DNA of 64,000 nucleotides from Terrisporobacter glycolicus ATCC 14880 = DSM 1288 (GTDB lineage Bacteria; Bacillota; Clostridia; Peptostreptococcales; Peptostreptococcaceae). The notes beneath the pieces were generated by a model. It saw only the letters and a program-made list of their open reading frames with translations. It did not search any database and had not been told where the DNA came from. Made by a program: the position numbers and the translations under genes. Location: contig NZ_CP117523.1 in the NCBI RefSeq assembly GCF_036812735.1, positions 930,001 through 994,000 of the forward strand. The letters run 5' to 3'. The number at the start of each line of letters is the position of its first letter. Positions within the stretch are counted from its first letter, which is position 1. This document shows positions 22,337-31,990 of this stretch, piece after piece.

Positions 22337-23212
22337 ATGAGTAAAAAAGTAAAAAAAATAAACCTTGTTATATTACTTGCATTTTTAATTTGTTTAACAT
22401 GTAGATACCAAGTACACATATCCTATAACAAATTAACAACAAACAACTACTTCATAACAACAAATAAAATCAATAATTCAGCTAACATAATTATTATATC
22501 AGATCTTCATGATAACCAATTAGGAGAAAATAACAGGGAGTTAATGTATAAGATAGAACAATTATCTCCAGATATTATTTTAGTGGTAGGTGATGTAGTT
22601 AACTCAAATTCAAAAGATAGCAAAATAGCTACAAATCTTATGAAACAACTATGCAAAAACCACAAAGTATTTTATTCCTTAGGAAATACAGATATAGATT
22701 ACATAGAATCGAGAAGTTCTGATTTAATAAAAGAACTAAAGGATATAGGGGTAACAATACTTGATAATGAGTACGAAGATATAGATTTAAACGGAAACAA
22801 AATAAGAATAGGTGGAATGTATGCCTATGCTTTCGGATTAAACGATAACAATGATGTAGACAAAGATACTATGGAAGAAGGAGTTTTTGATTTTTTAACT
22901 GATTTTCAAGACACAGATAATTATAAAATCATGATGGCACACAGACCAGATAGTTTTATCTTTGGAAATGCATCCCAAGTTTGGAACATTGACTTAGTGG
23001 TAAGTGGTCATAACCATGGTGGACAAGTAGTATTACCTTTTGTTGGAGGTCTATACGGTGGAGATCAAGGGTGGTTTCCGAAGTATGACAAAGGACTTTT
23101 TGATTTAAATAAGATAAAAATTCTTATAACTAGTGGATTGGGCTCAGGCAAACAAAAATTGCCTAGATTCAATAATCCACCAGAAATAGTTAATTTATAT
23201 TTATCTAAATAG
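22337..23212 (+). CDS. Membrane-anchored metallophosphoesterase (YkuE-like)
   Basis: A 291-residue calcineurin-like phosphoesterase. One N-terminal membrane segment (LVILLAFLICLTC, residues 10-22) places the enzyme outside the membrane. Metal motifs are complete: ISDLHD, VVGDVV, GNTD, a His in MMAHRP and SGHNHGGQ. The tail SGLGSGKQKLPRFNNPPEI is typical of the YkuE branch, whose members include UDP-glucosamine-type lipid phosphoesterases. It may trim a lipid-linked or surface phosphate at the end of the polysaccharide locus. A strong terminator follows, so it closes that transcription unit. Confidence 0.8.
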   Translation: MSKKVKKINLVILLAFLICLTCRYQVHISYNKLTTNNYFITTNKINNSANIIIISDLHDNQLGENNRELMYKIEQLSPDIILVVGDVVNSNSKDSKIATNLMKQLCKNHKVFYSLGNTDIDYIESRSSDLIKELKDIGVTILDNEYEDIDLNGNKIRIGGMYAYAFGLNDNNDVDKDTMEEGVFDFLTDFQDTDNYKIMMAHRPDSFIFGNASQVWNIDLVVSGHNHGGQVVLPFVGGLYGGDQGWFPKYDKGLFDLNKIKILITSGLGSGKQKLPRFNNPPEIVNLYLSK

Positions 23213-24307: not shown

Positions 24308-25849
24308 ATGAGCAAATTAGCAAGAGCCACTTTTGGACTAATGGTGGCAACTATAATAGCAAAAATTTTGGGATTTGGTAGAGAATTAGTTCTTGCTGCT
24401 GGGTATGGAACAAGCATATACAGTGATGCCTATGTAACGGCCATGAATATACCTCAGGTTATTTTTGCAATAATCGGAAGTACTTTAGCAACAGTGCTTA
24501 TACCAATGTATATGGAAGTACATAGAGACGAAGGAGAAGAAGGTTCTCTTAAATTTGTGAATAATGTGTTTAACTTGGTTGTAATAGGATGTTTAGCTCT
24601 TTCTGTTCTTGGATTTATATTTACTGAAGAAATTGTAGATGTATTTGCCATGGGATATGAAGGAGAGGCATTGCAGGTAGCTATTAATTTTACTAGAATA
24701 ACTATTCTTGGAATTGTATTTACTGGCCTAAGTTATGTAATGACTTCTTATCTACAAATAAAAAATGATTTTATTACTCCAGGACTTAGTAGCGTGCCAA
24801 AGAATGTAATTATTATTGTGGCAACTTTACTTAGTATAAAGCATGGCCCTTATATAATGATTTGGGGGACTTTGCTGGGAATGGTGAGCGAGTTTTTATT
24901 TCAAGTACCTTATGCTATTAAGGCTGGATATAGATATGTACCAATTATTAAGATAAAAGATAAATATATTAAAAAGATGGCTTGGCTTATTGCTCCTGTG
25001 TTGATCGGTGTGGCAGTAAATCAGGTGAATACTTTGGTAGATAGAACTTTAGCATCTACATTGCCAGCAGGAACGGTTTCTGCACTAAATTATTCAAATA
25101 AATTGATATCTTTTGTTATAGCCATATTTATAACATCAATTTCATCTGTGATTTATCCTATTTTATCACAGTTGTCAAATGAAAACAATAAGGAGAGATT
25201 TACTGCCTCTGTTATAAAAAGTATAAATTGCGTTATAATACTTGTTTTACCAATTACTGTAGGAACTATAGTTTTGTCACTTCCCATAGTTAGGGTACTT
25301 TTTGAAAGAGGAGCCTTTGACCCAAGGGGAACTTATTTAACAGCAGTGGCTTTATCCATGTACTCTGTAGGAATGGTTGCATATGGTTTAAGAGATGTTC
25401 TTGGAAAGATTTTTTACTCTTTACAAGACACAAAAACTCCAATGGTAAATGGTGTAATTGCCATGGGTGTGAATATGGTTATGGACGTGGTGTTTATTAA
25501 GTTTTGGGGACTAGGAGGTCTTACTTTGGCTACTAGCTTATCTTCCCTTGCTTGTATTATGTTATTGTTTAGAAGTTTGAAAAAGAAGATTGGATACTAT
25601 GGACAAGATAAGATTGTCAAGGCTACAGTGAAAAGTCTTGTGTCATCTTTGATTATGGGTGCTGTAGCTTATTATTCTTATCATTATATGATAGGATTCA
25701 CTCATACTGGGGGAGAAGCGGAGTTTATTGTGCTGATGATTGCTGTTACTTTGGCAGCGGCTGTGTATGGTGGTCTTGTTATATTGTTTAAGATTGATGA
25801 GATTAGGATTGTTACGGATGTTATTAAAAGAAGATTGAAAAGAGCTTAG
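24308..25849 (+). CDS. murJ: Lipid II flippase MurJ
   Basis: A 513-residue MOP-superfamily protein with 14 helices. MSKLARATFGLMVATIIAKI, then GFGRELVLAAGYG, then DAYVTAMNIPQ form the MurJ/MviN N-terminal signature. VNTLVDRTLASTLPAGTVSALNYSN and FERGAFD mark later conserved loops. It moves lipid II across the membrane for peptidoglycan synthesis, though some relatives in Firmicutes move other lipid-linked sugars. The ATG at 24308 has AAAGGAG seven bases upstream; an earlier ATG at 24272 lacks a site. It is a single-gene unit bounded by terminators. Confidence 0.9.
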   Translation: MSKLARATFGLMVATIIAKILGFGRELVLAAGYGTSIYSDAYVTAMNIPQVIFAIIGSTLATVLIPMYMEVHRDEGEEGSLKFVNNVFNLVVIGCLALSVLGFIFTEEIVDVFAMGYEGEALQVAINFTRITILGIVFTGLSYVMTSYLQIKNDFITPGLSSVPKNVIIIVATLLSIKHGPYIMIWGTLLGMVSEFLFQVPYAIKAGYRYVPIIKIKDKYIKKMAWLIAPVLIGVAVNQVNTLVDRTLASTLPAGTVSALNYSNKLISFVIAIFITSISSVIYPILSQLSNENNKERFTASVIKSINCVIILVLPITVGTIVLSLPIVRVLFERGAFDPRGTYLTAVALSMYSVGMVAYGLRDVLGKIFYSLQDTKTPMVNGVIAMGVNMVMDVVFIKFWGLGGLTLATSLSSLACIMLLFRSLKKKIGYYGQDKIVKATVKSLVSSLIMGAVAYYSYHYMIGFTHTGGEAEFIVLMIAVTLAAAVYGGLVILFKIDEIRIVTDVIKRRLKRA

Positions 25850-25866
25850 AAATAGGCTCTTTTTTC
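25841..25866 (+). terminator. Rho-independent terminator overlapping the murJ stop
   Basis: An 8-bp stem (AGAGCTTA / TAGGCTCT with one G-T pair) contains the stop codon of murJ and is followed by six T residues. Confidence 0.75.
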
Positions 25867-26033: not shown

Positions 26034-26306
26034 ATGAAAATAAATGGGGATTTTATGATAAGAGAGATTGCAGGAGATACTATTCTTGTTGCAACAGGAC
26101 AAGCTTCACAAAATTTTAATGGAATGATAACGCTAAATGAAGTTGGAGCATTTATTTTACAAAAAATTGAAGAATGTAAAAATGAAAATGAGTTAATTAG
26201 CAAAATTCTTGATGAATTTGAAGTAGATAAAAATATAGCTAGAGAAGATACTAAGGAGTTTATTGAACAGCTTTTAAAAATGGGGATAGTTTTGAATGCT
26301 GATTAA
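26034..26306 (+). CDS. PqqD-family peptide-recognition protein
   Basis: A 90-residue PqqD-like protein. Recognisable blocks are GDTILVATGQASQNFNGMIT, LNEVGAFILQKIEE, and a C-terminal helical part with DTKEFIEQLLKMGIV. PqqD-type RiPP recognition elements bind the leader of a precursor peptide and present it to modifying enzymes, often radical SAM/SPASM proteins. A candidate precursor with a YxxP leader lies 126 bases downstream, and a radical SAM enzyme follows in the same cluster. GGGAG lies six bases upstream of the ATG. Fusion to other domains is absent, so it is a stand-alone recognition protein. Confidence 0.85.
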   Translation: MKINGDFMIREIAGDTILVATGQASQNFNGMITLNEVGAFILQKIEECKNENELISKILDEFEVDKNIAREDTKEFIEQLLKMGIVLNAD

Positions 26307-26432
26307 ATTTTACTAGGATATATAATTATAGTTGGTATTTTACAATATAGAGAAATTAATTTTATATAGGGGTATGTATGGAAATTTCTTTATGTTGTAT
26401 TAAATATAATTAAATATTATGGGGGGAATAAT

Positions 26433-26810
26433 GTGAGAAGAAAATATACAAAGCCAAGTATGAGCATAGATATGTTCGAAGCAAATGAGTATATAGCAGC
26501 TTGTTACAAAATATACTGTAATGTGCCTACGGGTTATGGTTTTAATGATCGAAATGGCGATGGAAAGTATAATAAAAAAGATGATGGTTCTAAGATAGCT
26601 TCAGGAAGAGGATGTAATAAAGTGCATGTAGGTGTACATTTAGATGAAGCACCTCATGAAAATGCTATGTGGCAACCAACTGATTTTTGGGGTGATGACA
26701 AGGGTCAGGCTTATGGAGTATTCAATTGGACTCAAGGGAATGGTAACAGTGGACAGCATTTCTCAAAAGTTTCAGACACTCAGTGGGAAACTAATCCAAA
26801 TGCATCATAA
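26433..26810 (+). CDS. Candidate modified-peptide precursor with YxxP leader and Ca-loop-like core
   Basis: A 125-residue protein with no signal peptide or membrane helix. Residues 1-24 (KYTKPSM, then FEANEYIAAC) resemble RiPP leaders with the Y-x-x-P motif known from lasso-peptide leaders that bind PqqD-like proteins. The remainder holds Cys24, Cys29 and Cys61, many Gly, Asn, Asp and Trp residues, and the segment DRNGDGKYNKKD (39-50), which matches a dockerin or EF-hand calcium loop (D, N, D-G, D at positions 1, 3, 5-6, 12). The start is GTG at 26433 after GGGGGGAAT; the overlapping ATG at 26431 runs into a stop at once. It lies between the PqqD and kinase genes and is followed by a hairpin. 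Its role as substrate is inferred. Confidence 0.65.
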   Translation: MRRKYTKPSMSIDMFEANEYIAACYKIYCNVPTGYGFNDRNGDGKYNKKDDGSKIASGRGCNKVHVGVHLDEAPHENAMWQPTDFWGDDKGQAYGVFNWTQGNGNSGQHFSKVSDTQWETNPNAS

Positions 26811-26835
26811 AATAAAATAAATATATATAAAAGGC

Positions 26836-26864
26836 AAAGGTGGGATGGAAATCCTACCTTTTTT
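26836..26864 (+). terminator. Terminator or attenuator between precursor and modifying enzymes
   Basis: An 11-bp stem (AAAGGTGGGAT / ATCCTACCTTT, one G-T pair) with a GGAA tetraloop is followed by six T residues. Its position, directly after the precursor and only a few bases before the kinase gene, suits partial termination that raises precursor over enzyme levels. Confidence 0.8.
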
Positions 26865-26873
26865 GAGGTAAGT

Positions 26874-27734
26874 ATGAATATAAAATGTGGTAAATTAGCA
26901 TTTAAAATATATAATGATAAAAGATGGGATATTCCTATTAATGTAAAAAAATTTGAAGATAATGATAGTGAAACAGATATACTTTATGAAATTAATTTTG
27001 TAGATGATATTAAATATAACAATGGGCAAATTGTATGTCAAAGAGACAAAATTTTAGTTACTAGAAGTGATAATAATCTTGAATCCAGATATTTGATAAT
27101 ACCGGATAGTTTTTACCCTTATGCCTATTATAGGGAAGATAGTGACAAAGAAATAAGAATAGAAATCATAAAGGATTTCAAAAGTAGCTTCACTATAGAT
27201 ACAATGTTTTGGTCTTTATTTGCACTAGAAAAACATTTAATAAAAAAAGAATCAATTATTTTCCATTGCTCATACATGCTTTATAAAGAGCATGCAGTTT
27301 TATTTAGTGGACCAAGCGGTATAGGCAAATCAACACAATCAAGTTTATGGAAGAAAAATAGGAATGCTAGAATCATTAATGGAGATAGGGCTTTATTAGA
27401 AAAAGAAGATAAATGTTGGTATGTAAATGGTTGGCCCGTTTGTGGTTCTTCAGAGATTTGTATAAATGAAAAACACAAGCTAGGTTCTATCGTATTTTTA
27501 GAAAAAGGAAATAAAAATTCGGTCATTTGTCTTGAAAGAAAAGATGCAATAAAAAAATTAATTAGTCAAACAACTATCAATTATTGGAATAAGGATTTTG
27601 TAAATCAGGCAATATATTTAGCCGAAAATATTGTAGATAATATAAAAATATATGAATTAACATGTACGCCAGATATAGATGCAGTAAAAGTCTTAGAAAA
27701 GTTTTTGGAGGAGAATGAGGAATGGATACATTAG
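26874..27734 (+). CDS. HPr-kinase-like P-loop protein of the peptide cluster
   Basis: A 286-residue protein. Residues 1-120 form a family-specific N-terminal domain ending in a helical segment (DTMFWSLFALEKHLIKKE). The second half is HprK C-terminal-like, with P-loop FSGPSGIGKST (K152), INGDRALLEKED and a Gly-rich region GWPVCGSSE. Relatives encoded with lasso peptides phosphorylate a Ser in the precursor or its tail; others in PqqD clusters are uncharacterised. It lacks the classical HPr(Ser) kinase N-domain, so carbon-catabolite control is unlikely. It overlaps the radical SAM gene by 13 bases. The ribosome site GAGGT lies within the terminator tail. Confidence 0.8.
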   Translation: MNIKCGKLAFKIYNDKRWDIPINVKKFEDNDSETDILYEINFVDDIKYNNGQIVCQRDKILVTRSDNNLESRYLIIPDSFYPYAYYREDSDKEIRIEIIKDFKSSFTIDTMFWSLFALEKHLIKKESIIFHCSYMLYKEHAVLFSGPSGIGKSTQSSLWKKNRNARIINGDRALLEKEDKCWYVNGWPVCGSSEICINEKHKLGSIVFLEKGNKNSVICLERKDAIKKLISQTTINYWNKDFVNQAIYLAENIVDNIKIYELTCTPDIDAVKVLEKFLEENEEWIH

Positions 27735-28819
27735 AAGCAAATAATAGTATTGAAGAAAAATTATGTTACAAAGCAACCTTAGCTAATATTCCATTAAGTG
27801 GAGCTTTTGAATTATTACCTCTTTGTAATATGAACTGTAGTATGTGTTATATACGATTAACAAATGAGGAAATGAATAAAATTGGAAAAATTAGAACTGC
27901 TGATGAATGGTTATCCATTGCAAAAGAAATGAAAGATTCAGGTACACTTTTCATACTATTAACAGGTGGAGAGCCTTTGCTGCATAAAGAATTCGAAAAA
28001 ATTTATAATGGTCTGAGAGAAATGGGAATGATTGTAACTATTAATACTAATGGTACTTTAATTAATGATAAAGTATGTGATATGTTAGAGAGCAATAAGC
28101 CACGTAGAGTAAATATAACTCTTTATGGTGCAAGTAATGAAACTTATGAAAAATTATGTAATAACCCTAAGGGCTATGATGAAACAATAAGGGGCATAAA
28201 TTTATTAAAACGAAGAGATATAGATATTAAGTTAAATTCAAGTTTAGTAAAAGAAAATATGAATGATTTACCTAATATGTTAGAAATAGCTAACAATTTA
28301 GATCTTCCTATAAAAGTAGATACTTACATGTATCCAAAAACTAAAGGAATTGAAAATGATTTTAATAATGAAGATAGAATAGACCCACAAAAGGTGGCCA
28401 ATATAGATACTTTTATTAGATACAATACAGAGACTGAAGAATCGTTTATGAAAAATAGATGGGAGTATTTAAATAAATATGAGTATGGTAAAAATACTGA
28501 ACCTCCTAAATACTTACCTTTAAATTGTAGAGCAGGTAAAAGTTCTTTTTGGATAAACTGGCAAGGAAATATGACTCCCTGCGTATTTTTAGACAATATA
28601 TATATGGATGTTTTTGAAAATGGATTTATAAAATCATGGAATTATATAGTTGAAGAAAGTAAAAACATATTTTTATCTTCTGATTGTAAACTTTGTGATA
28701 AGAGAGAAGTATGCCAAGTTTGTGCAGCATCAGCTTACTGTGAGACTGGAAGTGTAAGTGAAAAACCGGAGTATTTATGTAAATTAACAGAAGAAACAAT
28801 AAGGATTTTAAGTTGTTGA
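27722..28819 (+). CDS. Radical SAM/SPASM peptide-modifying enzyme
   Basis: A 365-residue protein with the radical SAM cluster motif CNMNCSMC (C35, C39, C42) and the SAM-binding block LLTGGEPLLHKEF. A SPASM-type C-terminal region carries Cys in NCRAGKSS, MTPCVFL, CKLCDKREVCQVC, YCETG and YLCK, enough for two auxiliary iron-sulfur clusters. Such enzymes in PqqD-containing loci cross-link or epimerise residues in ribosomal peptides. It overlaps the kinase gene and has a strong GGAGGAG site, which indicates tight co-expression. The substrate is probably the protein at 26433. No clear anSME or PqqE assignment is possible. Confidence 0.88.
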   Translation: MDTLEANNSIEEKLCYKATLANIPLSGAFELLPLCNMNCSMCYIRLTNEEMNKIGKIRTADEWLSIAKEMKDSGTLFILLTGGEPLLHKEFEKIYNGLREMGMIVTINTNGTLINDKVCDMLESNKPRRVNITLYGASNETYEKLCNNPKGYDETIRGINLLKRRDIDIKLNSSLVKENMNDLPNMLEIANNLDLPIKVDTYMYPKTKGIENDFNNEDRIDPQKVANIDTFIRYNTETEESFMKNRWEYLNKYEYGKNTEPPKYLPLNCRAGKSSFWINWQGNMTPCVFLDNIYMDVFENGFIKSWNYIVEESKNIFLSSDCKLCDKREVCQVCAASAYCETGSVSEKPEYLCKLTEETIRILSC

Positions 28820-28853
28820 TGAGTAGAATTAAGTTAGGTGTTAGGGGGGAAGA

Positions 28854-30617
28854 TTGATATCTATGGAGTCAATCAAAATAATAATTGGGAAAATTAAAGA
28901 TGGAACTATTAGGCAGATGTGGATAGAGTTTAAGTGGATGTTTGGCTATGCTAAAAAATATAAAAAAGAAATAGTTTTTTATATTTTTTTAGGAATCTTT
29001 TCAACGGTCATGACTTTAGTAAGTAGCATTGCATCCAAGGAGTTAATAGATGTTGTTACAGGACATAATATAAAAGGAGCGCCACTGATAGCCATAATTA
29101 TGATAGGTATGGCACTATTTAGTTTGTTTTTTAATTCTCTTATGTCTCGAATTACATTAAAAATAAACATAAGAATACAAAATGATATTCAGGCGGATAT
29201 TTTTGACAAAATAATAGAAGTTAACTGGTTAGATCTTTCAAAATATCCAAGTGGAGATATATTAAATAGATTTAGTAGTGATGTGGGAACTGTAGCTCAA
29301 AGTGCTATTGGATGGGTACCAGATTTAGCTGTAGGTGTATTTAATTTTATAGCTACACTTGCTGTAATTATGTACTATGATTCCACAATGATGGTATTAA
29401 CAGCACTTAATGCTCCAGTTATGCTTTTATCGTCTAAATTGTTAATGTCTAGAATGAGAGATTACACAAGAAAAGTTAAAGAAATGAATAGTGAAGTTAC
29501 CCACTTTCAAACAGAAACTTTTTCAAATGTAGACTCTATAAAGTCTTTCGATTTAACATCATTATTTTCTAGAAGACTTAGAAATTTTCAATCTAGATAC
29601 AAGGATGTAAACTTAGAATATAACTTATTTAGTATAAAAACCAATGTGATATTGTCCTTAATAGGAATGGTTATTGAATATTCTTTCTTTGGTTGGGCTG
29701 TATATAGATTATGGACCGGGTATATTACCTATGGAGAAATGACCTTATTCTTGACTCAAGCAGGAAGGTTATCCTCTTCTTTCAGTTCTTTAATTTCTAT
29801 AATTCCATCAACAGTAGGTTCTACCATTTCAGCAGCACGTCTTATGGAAATAATAAATTTACCAAGGGAAAATAGAAATATTGGTGATAGTGAGGAACTT
29901 AGAGGAGTTAGCAAGGATGGATTTTCTATAAAACTAAAAGATGTGGACTTTTCTTATGTAGAGGATCAACAAGTTATTAATTCATCATATTTTGAAGCTC
30001 ATAGAAATGAAATAGTAGCCATAGTAGGTCCTTCTGGAGAAGGTAAAACCACTTTGATTCGTATGTTCTTAGGACTGATTTTACCAGACTCAGGTGAAGC
30101 AGTTATGATAGATAAAGATGGGAAAAGAATAGAGTTAAATGCATCCACAAGGAAATTTTTCTCCTATGTGCCACAAGGAAATACCATATTCTCTGGAAGT
30201 ATAGCAGAAAATTTAAGAATGGTTAAAGAAGATGCTACAGATGAAGAAATAATAGAAGCTTTGGAAATAGCTTGTGCTTATGAATTTGTTGAAAAACTAC
30301 CTGAGGGAATAAATAGTACTGTAGGGCCTAGAGGATTGGGCCTTTCTGAAGGACAAGCTCAGCGTATTTCCATAGCTAGGGCAGTTCTTAGAGATGCGCC
30401 AATACTGTTGCTAGATGAGGCAACTTCAGCTTTAGATGTAACTACAGAGAGAAAAGTTCTAAGAAATATTATTCAACAAAAGCCTAATAAAACTTGTATA
30501 GTTACTACTCATAGACCTAGCGTTTTAAATCTAAGTCAAAGAGTTTATAGAGTTATGAATAAAACTATTACGGAACTTTGTGAGGAGGAGTCTAGTGAAA
30601 TGGCTATAGACTTTTAG
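28854..30617 (+). CDS. ABC transporter, fused permease and ATPase (exporter type)
   Basis: A 587-residue half-transporter. The six-helix type I exporter domain (about residues 40-330) is followed by a nucleotide-binding domain with VGPSGEGKTT near 392, the signature GLSEGQAQR and Walker B ILLLDEATSALD near 517. No N-terminal C39 peptidase domain is present, so leader removal must happen elsewhere or not at all. Position within the peptide cluster suggests export of the modified product as a homodimer. The start is TTG at 28854, five bases after GGGGGG; an ATG at 28863 is an alternative. Confidence 0.87.
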   Translation: MISMESIKIIIGKIKDGTIRQMWIEFKWMFGYAKKYKKEIVFYIFLGIFSTVMTLVSSIASKELIDVVTGHNIKGAPLIAIIMIGMALFSLFFNSLMSRITLKINIRIQNDIQADIFDKIIEVNWLDLSKYPSGDILNRFSSDVGTVAQSAIGWVPDLAVGVFNFIATLAVIMYYDSTMMVLTALNAPVMLLSSKLLMSRMRDYTRKVKEMNSEVTHFQTETFSNVDSIKSFDLTSLFSRRLRNFQSRYKDVNLEYNLFSIKTNVILSLIGMVIEYSFFGWAVYRLWTGYITYGEMTLFLTQAGRLSSSFSSLISIIPSTVGSTISAARLMEIINLPRENRNIGDSEELRGVSKDGFSIKLKDVDFSYVEDQQVINSSYFEAHRNEIVAIVGPSGEGKTTLIRMFLGLILPDSGEAVMIDKDGKRIELNASTRKFFSYVPQGNTIFSGSIAENLRMVKEDATDEEIIEALEIACAYEFVEKLPEGINSTVGPRGLGLSEGQAQRISIARAVLRDAPILLLDEATSALDVTTERKVLRNIIQQKPNKTCIVTTHRPSVLNLSQRVYRVMNKTITELCEEESSEMAIDF

Positions 30618-30707
30618 AAATAGTTTATTTCAGTAAAACACTAAAATCAAAACTAAAACAGGGGCAAAGGAGTGCACAAAAATGTTACCCCCTTGAAAAG
30701 GAGAAAT

Positions 30708-31940
30708 ATGAACAAAATATACAAAGATTTTTTTCAATTATTAAGATCTAGTTTAAAAAACGAAACACCATTTATAGAAGATAATATAGATTGGGTAGAA
30801 ATGTTAAGATTGTCTTCTATACATGAGGTTGTTCCACTTATTTATAAATCAGCTTATAAAATTCAATCTTTTCAACAAACAGACTTGAATTTTACTAAAT
30901 ATTTCAAAAAAACATCCATGCAAATAGTCTATAGTCAAATTCAAAGAAGCGATAGATTTTTACAGATATATAAACAGTTCAACGAAGTAGGGGTGAAAAT
31001 ATTAGTATTCAAGGGAATAATATTAAGGGAACTATATCCAATACCTGAAGAGCGTATTTCTGCAGACGAGGATTTATTAATTGAACTGAAAAACTTAAAA
31101 CAAGCTATAAAAATATTAGAAGATAACAATATGGAGAGGGCTTTGTCGGAGGGAGAAGAAGCTGATGTCTATCATTATTTTTGTAGACAAACTGGACTTC
31201 ATCTAGAGTTACATACAGCTTTATTTGGTGATAAATCAGCTACAAATAAAAAAATCGAAGAGATATTTAGTACTGTTTTTCAAGATGCAGATACAATAAA
31301 CATAAACAATATAGATGTACACACATTTTCCATAGACAAACATTTTTTATACATAATATGCCATGCAATCAAGCATTTTGTTTCATGTGGTACGGGAATT
31401 AGACAGATTTGCGACATATCCATGTATATAAATAAATATTATGAAATTATAAATTGGAATTATATATGGAAAGAAATTACTAACATGGGATATGATACTT
31501 TGTTAGTAAATTTACTTCAAATAGCCATAGATTACTTGGAATTAGATGAAAATAAGGTAGTTTATGCAAATGATAAAAATAATTATTATATAAACACAGA
31601 TAATCTGATGGAAGATATAATGGATGGTGGAATATACGGCACAAGCACCCAGGCAAGATTAAATTCAGCCAATATGTCCCTTGATGCTCTAAACAAAGAA
31701 TCAAAATCAAAAATTAAGTCTAACATAGCAGCAATCTTCCCAAAATCAGAAAACTTGAAAATGAGATACAAATATTTAGAAAAATATCCAGCATTACTAC
31801 CAGTGGCATGGACAAGTCGAATTCTAACTTATTCAAAAGAAAGAGGTAGTTTGTCCAATGTAGGAGCTACTGCAAAGGAAACTATTGAAGTAGGCAACAG
31901 AAGAATAGATTTGCTTAAAGAATATAAACTCATAAAATAA
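30708..31940 (+). CDS. Nucleotidyltransferase-fold protein (NTP_transf_5 type) of the peptide cluster
   Basis: A 410-residue protein. The nucleotidyltransferase core has VFKGIILRELYP and ISADEDLLIE near 116-126, matching the K-G...R...D-x-D-L pattern of the uncharacterised nucleotidyltransferase family often found beside lasso-peptide and PqqD clusters. A helical domain with HAIKHFVSCGTG and DISMYINK follows. It may add a nucleotide to the precursor or to a partner protein. The start is ATG 30708 with AAAAGGAG just upstream; a GTG at 30672 is less likely. It is the last gene before a strong bidirectional terminator. Confidence 0.75.
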   Translation: MNKIYKDFFQLLRSSLKNETPFIEDNIDWVEMLRLSSIHEVVPLIYKSAYKIQSFQQTDLNFTKYFKKTSMQIVYSQIQRSDRFLQIYKQFNEVGVKILVFKGIILRELYPIPEERISADEDLLIELKNLKQAIKILEDNNMERALSEGEEADVYHYFCRQTGLHLELHTALFGDKSATNKKIEEIFSTVFQDADTININNIDVHTFSIDKHFLYIICHAIKHFVSCGTGIRQICDISMYINKYYEIINWNYIWKEITNMGYDTLLVNLLQIAIDYLELDENKVVYANDKNNYYINTDNLMEDIMDGGIYGTSTQARLNSANMSLDALNKESKSKIKSNIAAIFPKSENLKMRYKYLEKYPALLPVAWTSRILTYSKERGSLSNVGATAKETIEVGNRRIDLLKEYKLIK

Positions 31941-31950
31941 CATCAATTAA

Positions 31951-31990
31951 AAAAGTGCTTTCAAATTAAATATAATTTGGAAGCACTTTT
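31951..31990. terminator. Bidirectional terminator closing the peptide cluster
   Basis: Arms of 17 bases at 31951-31967 and 31974-31990 pair with one mismatch around a 6-base loop. A and T runs flank both sides, so it can serve both the plus-strand cluster and the minus-strand deoR-type gene. Confidence 0.9.

Follow-up and report, generated by a model that had tools for sequence, protein, structure and literature searches.

In clusters for linear polyphosphorylated peptides (LPPs), as described in the main text of PMC13381572, a recognition element for ribosomally synthesised and post-translationally modified peptides (RiPP recognition element, RRE) presents a precursor with a YxxP leader, the kinase LppK phosphorylates core Ser, and the SpI peptidase LppS performs the cleavage. 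Related modifications are known from lasso peptides, where PadeK phosphorylates the C-terminal Ser of paeninodin and PsmN is needed to place a hexose on the phosphorylated C-terminal Ser of pseudomycoidin, with prior nucleotidylation not excluded for PsmN, according to the part of the review PMC9266682 that treats these peptides. The role of LPPs and of paeninodin is still open, as stated in the discussion of PMC13381572. Here we analyze a stretch of 64,000 nucleotides (the window) from Terrisporobacter glycolicus ATCC 14880 = DSM 1288 (contig NZ_CP117523.1, positions 930,001 to 994,000), which carries a cluster of six genes around a 125-residue precursor protein. We think it fairly probable that this is a RiPP cluster representing a radical-SAM-bearing branch related to LPPs and working by the steps proposed below.

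Layout and conservation of the cluster

The six genes lie on the plus strand and form one block, 26034-31940, flanked upstream by the murJ terminator and downstream by another one:

25838..25863, plus strand: intrinsic terminator closing murJ and bounding the block upstream (U-run; fold -11.9 kcal/mol, z -3.77)
26034..26306, plus strand: PqqD-type stand-alone RRE (PF05402, E=1.8e-15)
26433..26810, plus strand: precursor, 125 aa, GTG start, with conserved leader and terminal Ser
26836..26861, plus strand: terminator- or attenuator-like hairpin in the precursor-kinase gap (-15.3 kcal/mol, z -4.05)
26874..27734, plus strand: kinase with HprK/PEPCK fold (H131, P-loop K152, NGD motif with D171)
27722..28819, plus strand: radical SAM/SPASM enzyme (PF04055, E=2.3e-27)
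28863..30617, plus strand: MsbA-like ABC half-exporter without C39 domain (PF00664 and PF00005)
30708..31940, plus strand: NTP_transf_5 protein with KG...DED motif (PF14907, E=3.1e-50)
31951..31990, plus strand: terminator, downstream boundary (-20.7 kcal/mol, z -8.40)

The original prediction described these genes as a single RiPP set devoid of a lasso cyclase and a leader protease. Domain matches and the two bounding terminators establish the block, a domain search of the cluster proteins finds neither a lasso cyclase nor a leader protease among the six, and we retain the RiPP reading. The kinase gene runs 13 nt into the radical SAM gene, and the hairpin in the precursor-kinase gap is also present in a genome of the same genus (G005, L035). 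A promoter scan gave 48 sites, fewer than in shuffled sequence (mean 58.9), and no promoter is therefore claimed. The top NCBIfam matches of the RRE are lasso and GeoRSP PqqD models, all under cut-off, and that of the exporter is the MsbA model, also under its cut-off. The KG...DED motif of the NTP_transf_5 protein is one that we take to be a nucleotidyltransferase motif.

The radical SAM enzyme contains C35-C39-C42 together with C269, C287, C322, C325, C331, C334 and C353; each of the three cluster Cys and the seven Cys with SPASM-like spacing is retained in 79 or 80 members of an 80-sequence set that contains the window enzyme. Its best solved relative is SkfB (6efn), the sporulation killing factor maturase, and its nearest named relative, 89% identical, is found in T. 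petrolearius (L115).

Relatives of the radical SAM enzyme were collected by an alignment-based scan, and the best 80 of 286 confirmed sequences were used for neighbor counts, which were made with single-sequence searches at loci several of which end at contig ends. Within 7 kb of the radical SAM gene, homologs of the kinase were present at 73 of these loci, of PqqD at 56, of the ABC exporter at 23, of NTP_transf_5 at 22 and of an SpI-type peptidase at 16; at 66 of the 73 loci the kinase gene lies no more than 500 nt from the radical SAM gene, on the same strand. Among 71 genomes of the same family, the precursor profile matches at ten places in seven genomes, and strong matches of the kinase profile (E<1e-50; nine places) fall in exactly these seven; each of the ten precursor places has a strong kinase match no more than 1.3 kb away. 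Weak kinase matches in four further genomes of the family (E 5e-7 to 8e-4) were set aside as probable ordinary HPr kinases. Conservation of the neighborhood and co-location of the small protein were two of the three tests that the original prediction had named for itself, and neither refutes it. The cluster is patchily distributed: it was found in three of six genomes of the genus, and over 291 genomes of the class the precursor profile matches two (its own and G094), which means either that few of these genomes carry the family or that the profile lacks sensitivity. Related clusters were seen in other gut and rumen bacteria, and the gene set spans genera.

Another genome of the genus (G002, L236) carries a different complete cassette at the same chromosomal site, between murJ and a DeoR gene that are 94-95% identical to those of the window. 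Its gene order is PqqD, radical SAM, precursor, kinase, SpI, ABC, NTP_transf_5, so that it includes the SpI gene absent from the window cluster. Identity to the window proteins is 75% for NTP_transf_5, 50% for the ABC exporter, 39% over 155 residues for the kinase, 36% for PqqD and 32% for the radical SAM enzyme, and the two precursors do not match at E<=1e-5. It appears that precursor and enzymes were swapped as a unit at this site.

Precursor residues, partner enzymes and proposed maturation

The precursor begins with the leader MRRKYTKPSMSIDMFEANEYIAA, followed by Cys24, and ends in NPNAS with Ser125; where the leader gives way to the core is a guess. Within the leader, which reads SIDMFEANEYIAAC, the YxxP motif is YTKP at residues 5-8, and P8 is invariant in 69 sequences. 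Beyond the leader, Ser125 and Cys24 are the sole invariant positions among 19 aligned relatives. A leader-only hidden Markov model (HMM) built from 23 seeds was run on 19588 small open reading frames (ORFs) and gave 84 distinct matches. A limit of E<=0.01 removed 13 of these, and the remaining 71 precursors end in Ser in 61 cases, compared with 37 of 904 background ORFs, and 70 of them contain at least one Cys, a count biased towards Cys by the choice of seeds with Cys at residues 16-40. Several precursors without terminal Ser have Ser at the penultimate place (NASV, FSST, FSSN, FASV).

The presence of Cys follows that of the radical SAM gene. All 67 precursors at radical SAM loci contain Cys, compared with none of 23 at kinase loci without radical SAM; the same division is found by core homology group (25/25 and 0/19) and for precursors of at most 70 residues (8/8 and 0/23). 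Since the seeds of the first HMM held Cys, the count was redone with models that stop before it, and these Cys-neutral models give 60/60 with radical SAM and 0/22 without at E<=0.01, and 67/68 and 0/23 at E<=1. A search for precursors near the kinases had identified none at 24 of 86 with radical SAM and at 49 of 72 without, and these do not enter the counts. The counts also exclude spurious-looking ORFs from regular-expression listings, and the no-radical-SAM set omits a Cys precursor (L128) that adjoins a further kinase gene with a radical SAM gene of its own. A second radical SAM subtype was observed at five loci (L044, L047, L051, L052, L064), with short Cys precursors often lacking terminal Ser and with SpI at four of the five.

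At radical SAM loci 53 of 67 precursors carry the terminal Ser, compared with 4 of 23 at kinase loci lacking radical SAM. The terminal Ser also tracks the NGD motif of the kinase, being present in 53 of 60 kinase-precursor pairs with NGD and in 7 of 31 with other motifs, where pairs were not made distinct and four without an identifiable motif were set aside. Among the 86 kinases accompanied by radical SAM, 75 have NGD.

Because the cluster combines parts of the LPP and lasso-kinase type with a radical SAM enzyme, we propose a Cys-dependent radical modification together with phosphorylation, and probably glycosylation, of Ser125, and we infer the following chemistry and order. The PqqD-type RRE would bind the YxxP leader of the precursor; the radical SAM/SPASM enzyme would alter the core with its Cys, a thioether or some other crosslink that depends on Cys being the most likely result; the HprK-like kinase would phosphorylate Ser125; the NTP_transf_5 enzyme, acting like PsmN, would lead to a sugar on the Ser phosphate; and the ABC exporter would secrete the product. 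Leader removal would fall to a peptidase encoded elsewhere, as the cluster has none. The idea in the original prediction that radical chemistry might be combined with phosphorylation is one we judge to be right; of the nucleotidylation that it also considered, a sugar on phosphoserine may be the likelier outcome by analogy with PsmN, with nucleotidylation retained as a possible prior step insofar as the review leaves it open (PMC9266682).

A search for SpI in the genome gave one match, which lies beyond the window, some 80 kb downstream of the cluster, and has two more PqqD genes within 7 kb. The region (L203 5359-14354, C1:1040358-1049353) has no kinase or radical SAM match; it also holds, by visual inspection, an LCP-like ORF and an ORF resembling one located 3' of NTP_transf_5 in Intestinibacter, and is perhaps a remnant of a cluster site. 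Near the window end lie a camelysin/TasA-like gene (PF12389, 60245-60787) and an S26-type signal peptidase (PF10502, 62893-63390), the latter a possible trans-acting relative of LppS.

Several points weigh against the proposed scheme. In LPP clusters the kinase targets S3 of the core rather than the C-terminus, and deletion of lppN caused no detectable change, as given in the main text of PMC13381572; the terminal-phosphate and sugar steps are proposed by analogy. Of the 67 precursors at radical SAM loci, 14 lack the terminal Ser, the precursor of the alternative cassette in G002 ends in STT, and 20 of the 72 kinases that lack a radical SAM partner have NGD as well. The sole exception to the Cys rule is L052 145-297, a WxxP ORF without Cys that lies at a radical SAM locus and passes only at the looser threshold, E<=1. 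The Pfam SPASM match of the radical SAM enzyme is under cut-off (E=0.033). The predicted precursor model is without confidence (pLDDT, the predicted local distance difference test, 46), and the search for solved relatives of the precursor gave none (best E=0.55), so that no claim of a folded core is made. The kinase tree mostly divides kinases that have a radical SAM partner from those that do not, with four label changes and only two independent pairs, so that the test of trait association is underpowered and the Cys and Ser associations, strong as they are, extend over few evolutionary events.

Paired Cys residues of a secreted protein are able to oxidize to disulfides, and five of the six cluster parts have LPP counterparts, to judge from the main text of PMC13381572; both points count for the possible, if doubtful, alternative of an LPP-type phosphopeptide: mainly phosphorylated, given a non-thioether change by the radical SAM enzyme (e.g., epimerization or a C-C crosslink), and oxidized to disulfides after export. 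The division of Cys between loci with and without radical SAM, which holds for short precursors and with Cys-neutral models, argues against it. We regard as unlikely that the kinase has its target Ser close to the leader junction or at some other position and that the terminal Ser is kept for another purpose, such as recognition by an exporter or an anchoring enzyme. The S3 target of LppK and the rarity of terminal Ser at kinase loci without radical SAM are in agreement with such an assignment, whereas the unique invariance of Ser125 and Cys24 beyond the leader, the tracking of terminal Ser with NGD, and the C-terminal target of PadeK (PMC9266682) favor Ser125. That the locus is a lasso cluster which lost its cyclase and is now non-functional is highly improbable: kinase and NTP transferase are indeed common to paeninodin-type clusters as outlined in the same review, yet the genes are intact and kept across genera, a radical SAM gene is present, and another genome of the genus has a different complete cassette at the same site.

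If the preferred reading, with radical modification of the Cys core and phosphorylation of Ser125, is true, a single peptide would undergo both radical SAM modification and phospho(glyco)sylation, uniting two RiPP chemistries, and a testable rule follows that pairs radical SAM enzymes with Cys cores and NGD-type kinases with C-terminal Ser.

Surface-related neighbors

By their surroundings, these peptides neighbor capsule-type genes and genes for surface proteins. Upstream of the cluster, ORFs from 281 to 22268 look by sequence like an exopolysaccharide locus (the three genes tested match PF02719, PF02397 and PF01943), followed by one further gene of context outside the core:

22337..23212, plus strand: calcineurin-like phosphoesterase (PF00149)

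The 80 radical SAM loci were compared with 80 kinase loci, 78 from part of the class-sample places plus G005 and G034, whose lengths differ from those of the radical SAM loci. Phosphoesterase homologs occur at 10 of 80 radical SAM loci and at 1 of 80 kinase loci, and LCP homologs at 10 and 1 likewise; in both cases the single kinase locus is itself a radical SAM locus (L036). A general link to polysaccharide genes was considered and rejected on the counts: at least one exopolysaccharide-type homolog is present at 24/80 radical SAM and 14/80 kinase loci, and at least two kinds at 5/80 and 8/80, respectively.

Directly behind a large ORF of 987-2543 residues stand 19 of 66 precursor genes, at spacings from a 4-nt overlap to 41 nt, and all four large upstream proteins tested contain a VWA domain, which suggests that the large protein may be an adhesin partnered with the peptide. 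The LCP, phosphoesterase and VWA neighbors point to a possible destination at the cell surface. The 19 precursors come from L182, L133, L189, L192 and 15 other loci, and 18 of them end in F-x-S. After related clusters at L118, L120, L123 and L129, capsule-control genes of PHP-type phosphatase-like, BY-kinase-like and LCP-like kinds were seen (phmmer and inspection; not every gene at every locus). A tentative extension, possible at best, is an unrecognized RiPP class distributed patchily over many genera of clostridia. Its Cys-rich cores, about 60-130 residues long, would carry a radical-SAM crosslink and a phosphoglycosylated C-terminal Ser tying the product to a surface glycan or to a co-encoded VWA adhesin.

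Comparison with described systems

The SynChlorMet models (TIGR04248-TIGR04251) likewise bring together a PqqD-like protein, ScmC and radical SAM/SPASM proteins, and ScmC is the top NCBIfam match of the kinase; scores fall well short of the cut-offs, however (ScmC 25.6 for 125, ScmD 17.9 for 100, ScmE 74.9 for 400, ScmF 64.5 for 400), and the SynChlorMet cassette presumably comprises two radical SAM proteins, ScmE and ScmF, unlike the window cluster. Sactipeptide and ranthipeptide maturases act on Cys-containing peptides, and the window enzyme resembles them in having both the radical SAM CX3CX2C motif and auxiliary-cluster Cys. To our knowledge, these classes do not include a kinase or an NTP transferase as partner, and the AlbA, StsB and PapB models match the window enzyme far under their cut-offs (among the best 25 of 69 matches).

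With phosphorylated or glycosylated lasso peptides such as paeninodin and pseudomycoidin, the cluster shares a kinase that would act on a C-terminal Ser and a PsmN-like NTP transferase, to the extent covered by PMC9266682, and a precursor with C-terminal Ser (Ser125; 61/71 in the family) stands beside the HprK-like kinase. It differs in having a radical SAM enzyme and a core of about 100 residues, and in lacking a macrolactam cyclase and a B2 protease among its six genes, the extent of the search.

The LPP clusters (PMC13381572, May 2026) are closest. As far as the main text of that paper describes them, they share with the window a discrete RRE (PF05402 in the window), a YxxP leader, an HprK-like kinase, an NTP transferase and an MsbA-like exporter, with precursors of 35-200 residues with variable C-termini and a polysaccharide-locus neighborhood; the window NTP transferase is PF14907, a family to which that text does not assign LppN. 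The set is thus not far from every named class, which qualifies the original prediction that it matches none known. An SpI-like leader peptidase is absent from the six genes, and the leader SIDMFEANEYIAAC does not contain the remainder of the LPP consensus, HQxIxFETxxS. For these two reasons we do not class the cluster as LPP, even though its working appears LPP-like. The term radical SAM does not occur in the main text of PMC13381572, and a search of open papers found no description of a radical-SAM-bearing branch; within the papers searched, a variant of the LPP-like cluster with a radical SAM enzyme and a Cys core is new. Compared with LPP clusters, the window cluster dispenses with the SpI peptidase and adds a radical SAM/SPASM enzyme and a Cys-containing core that ends in Ser.

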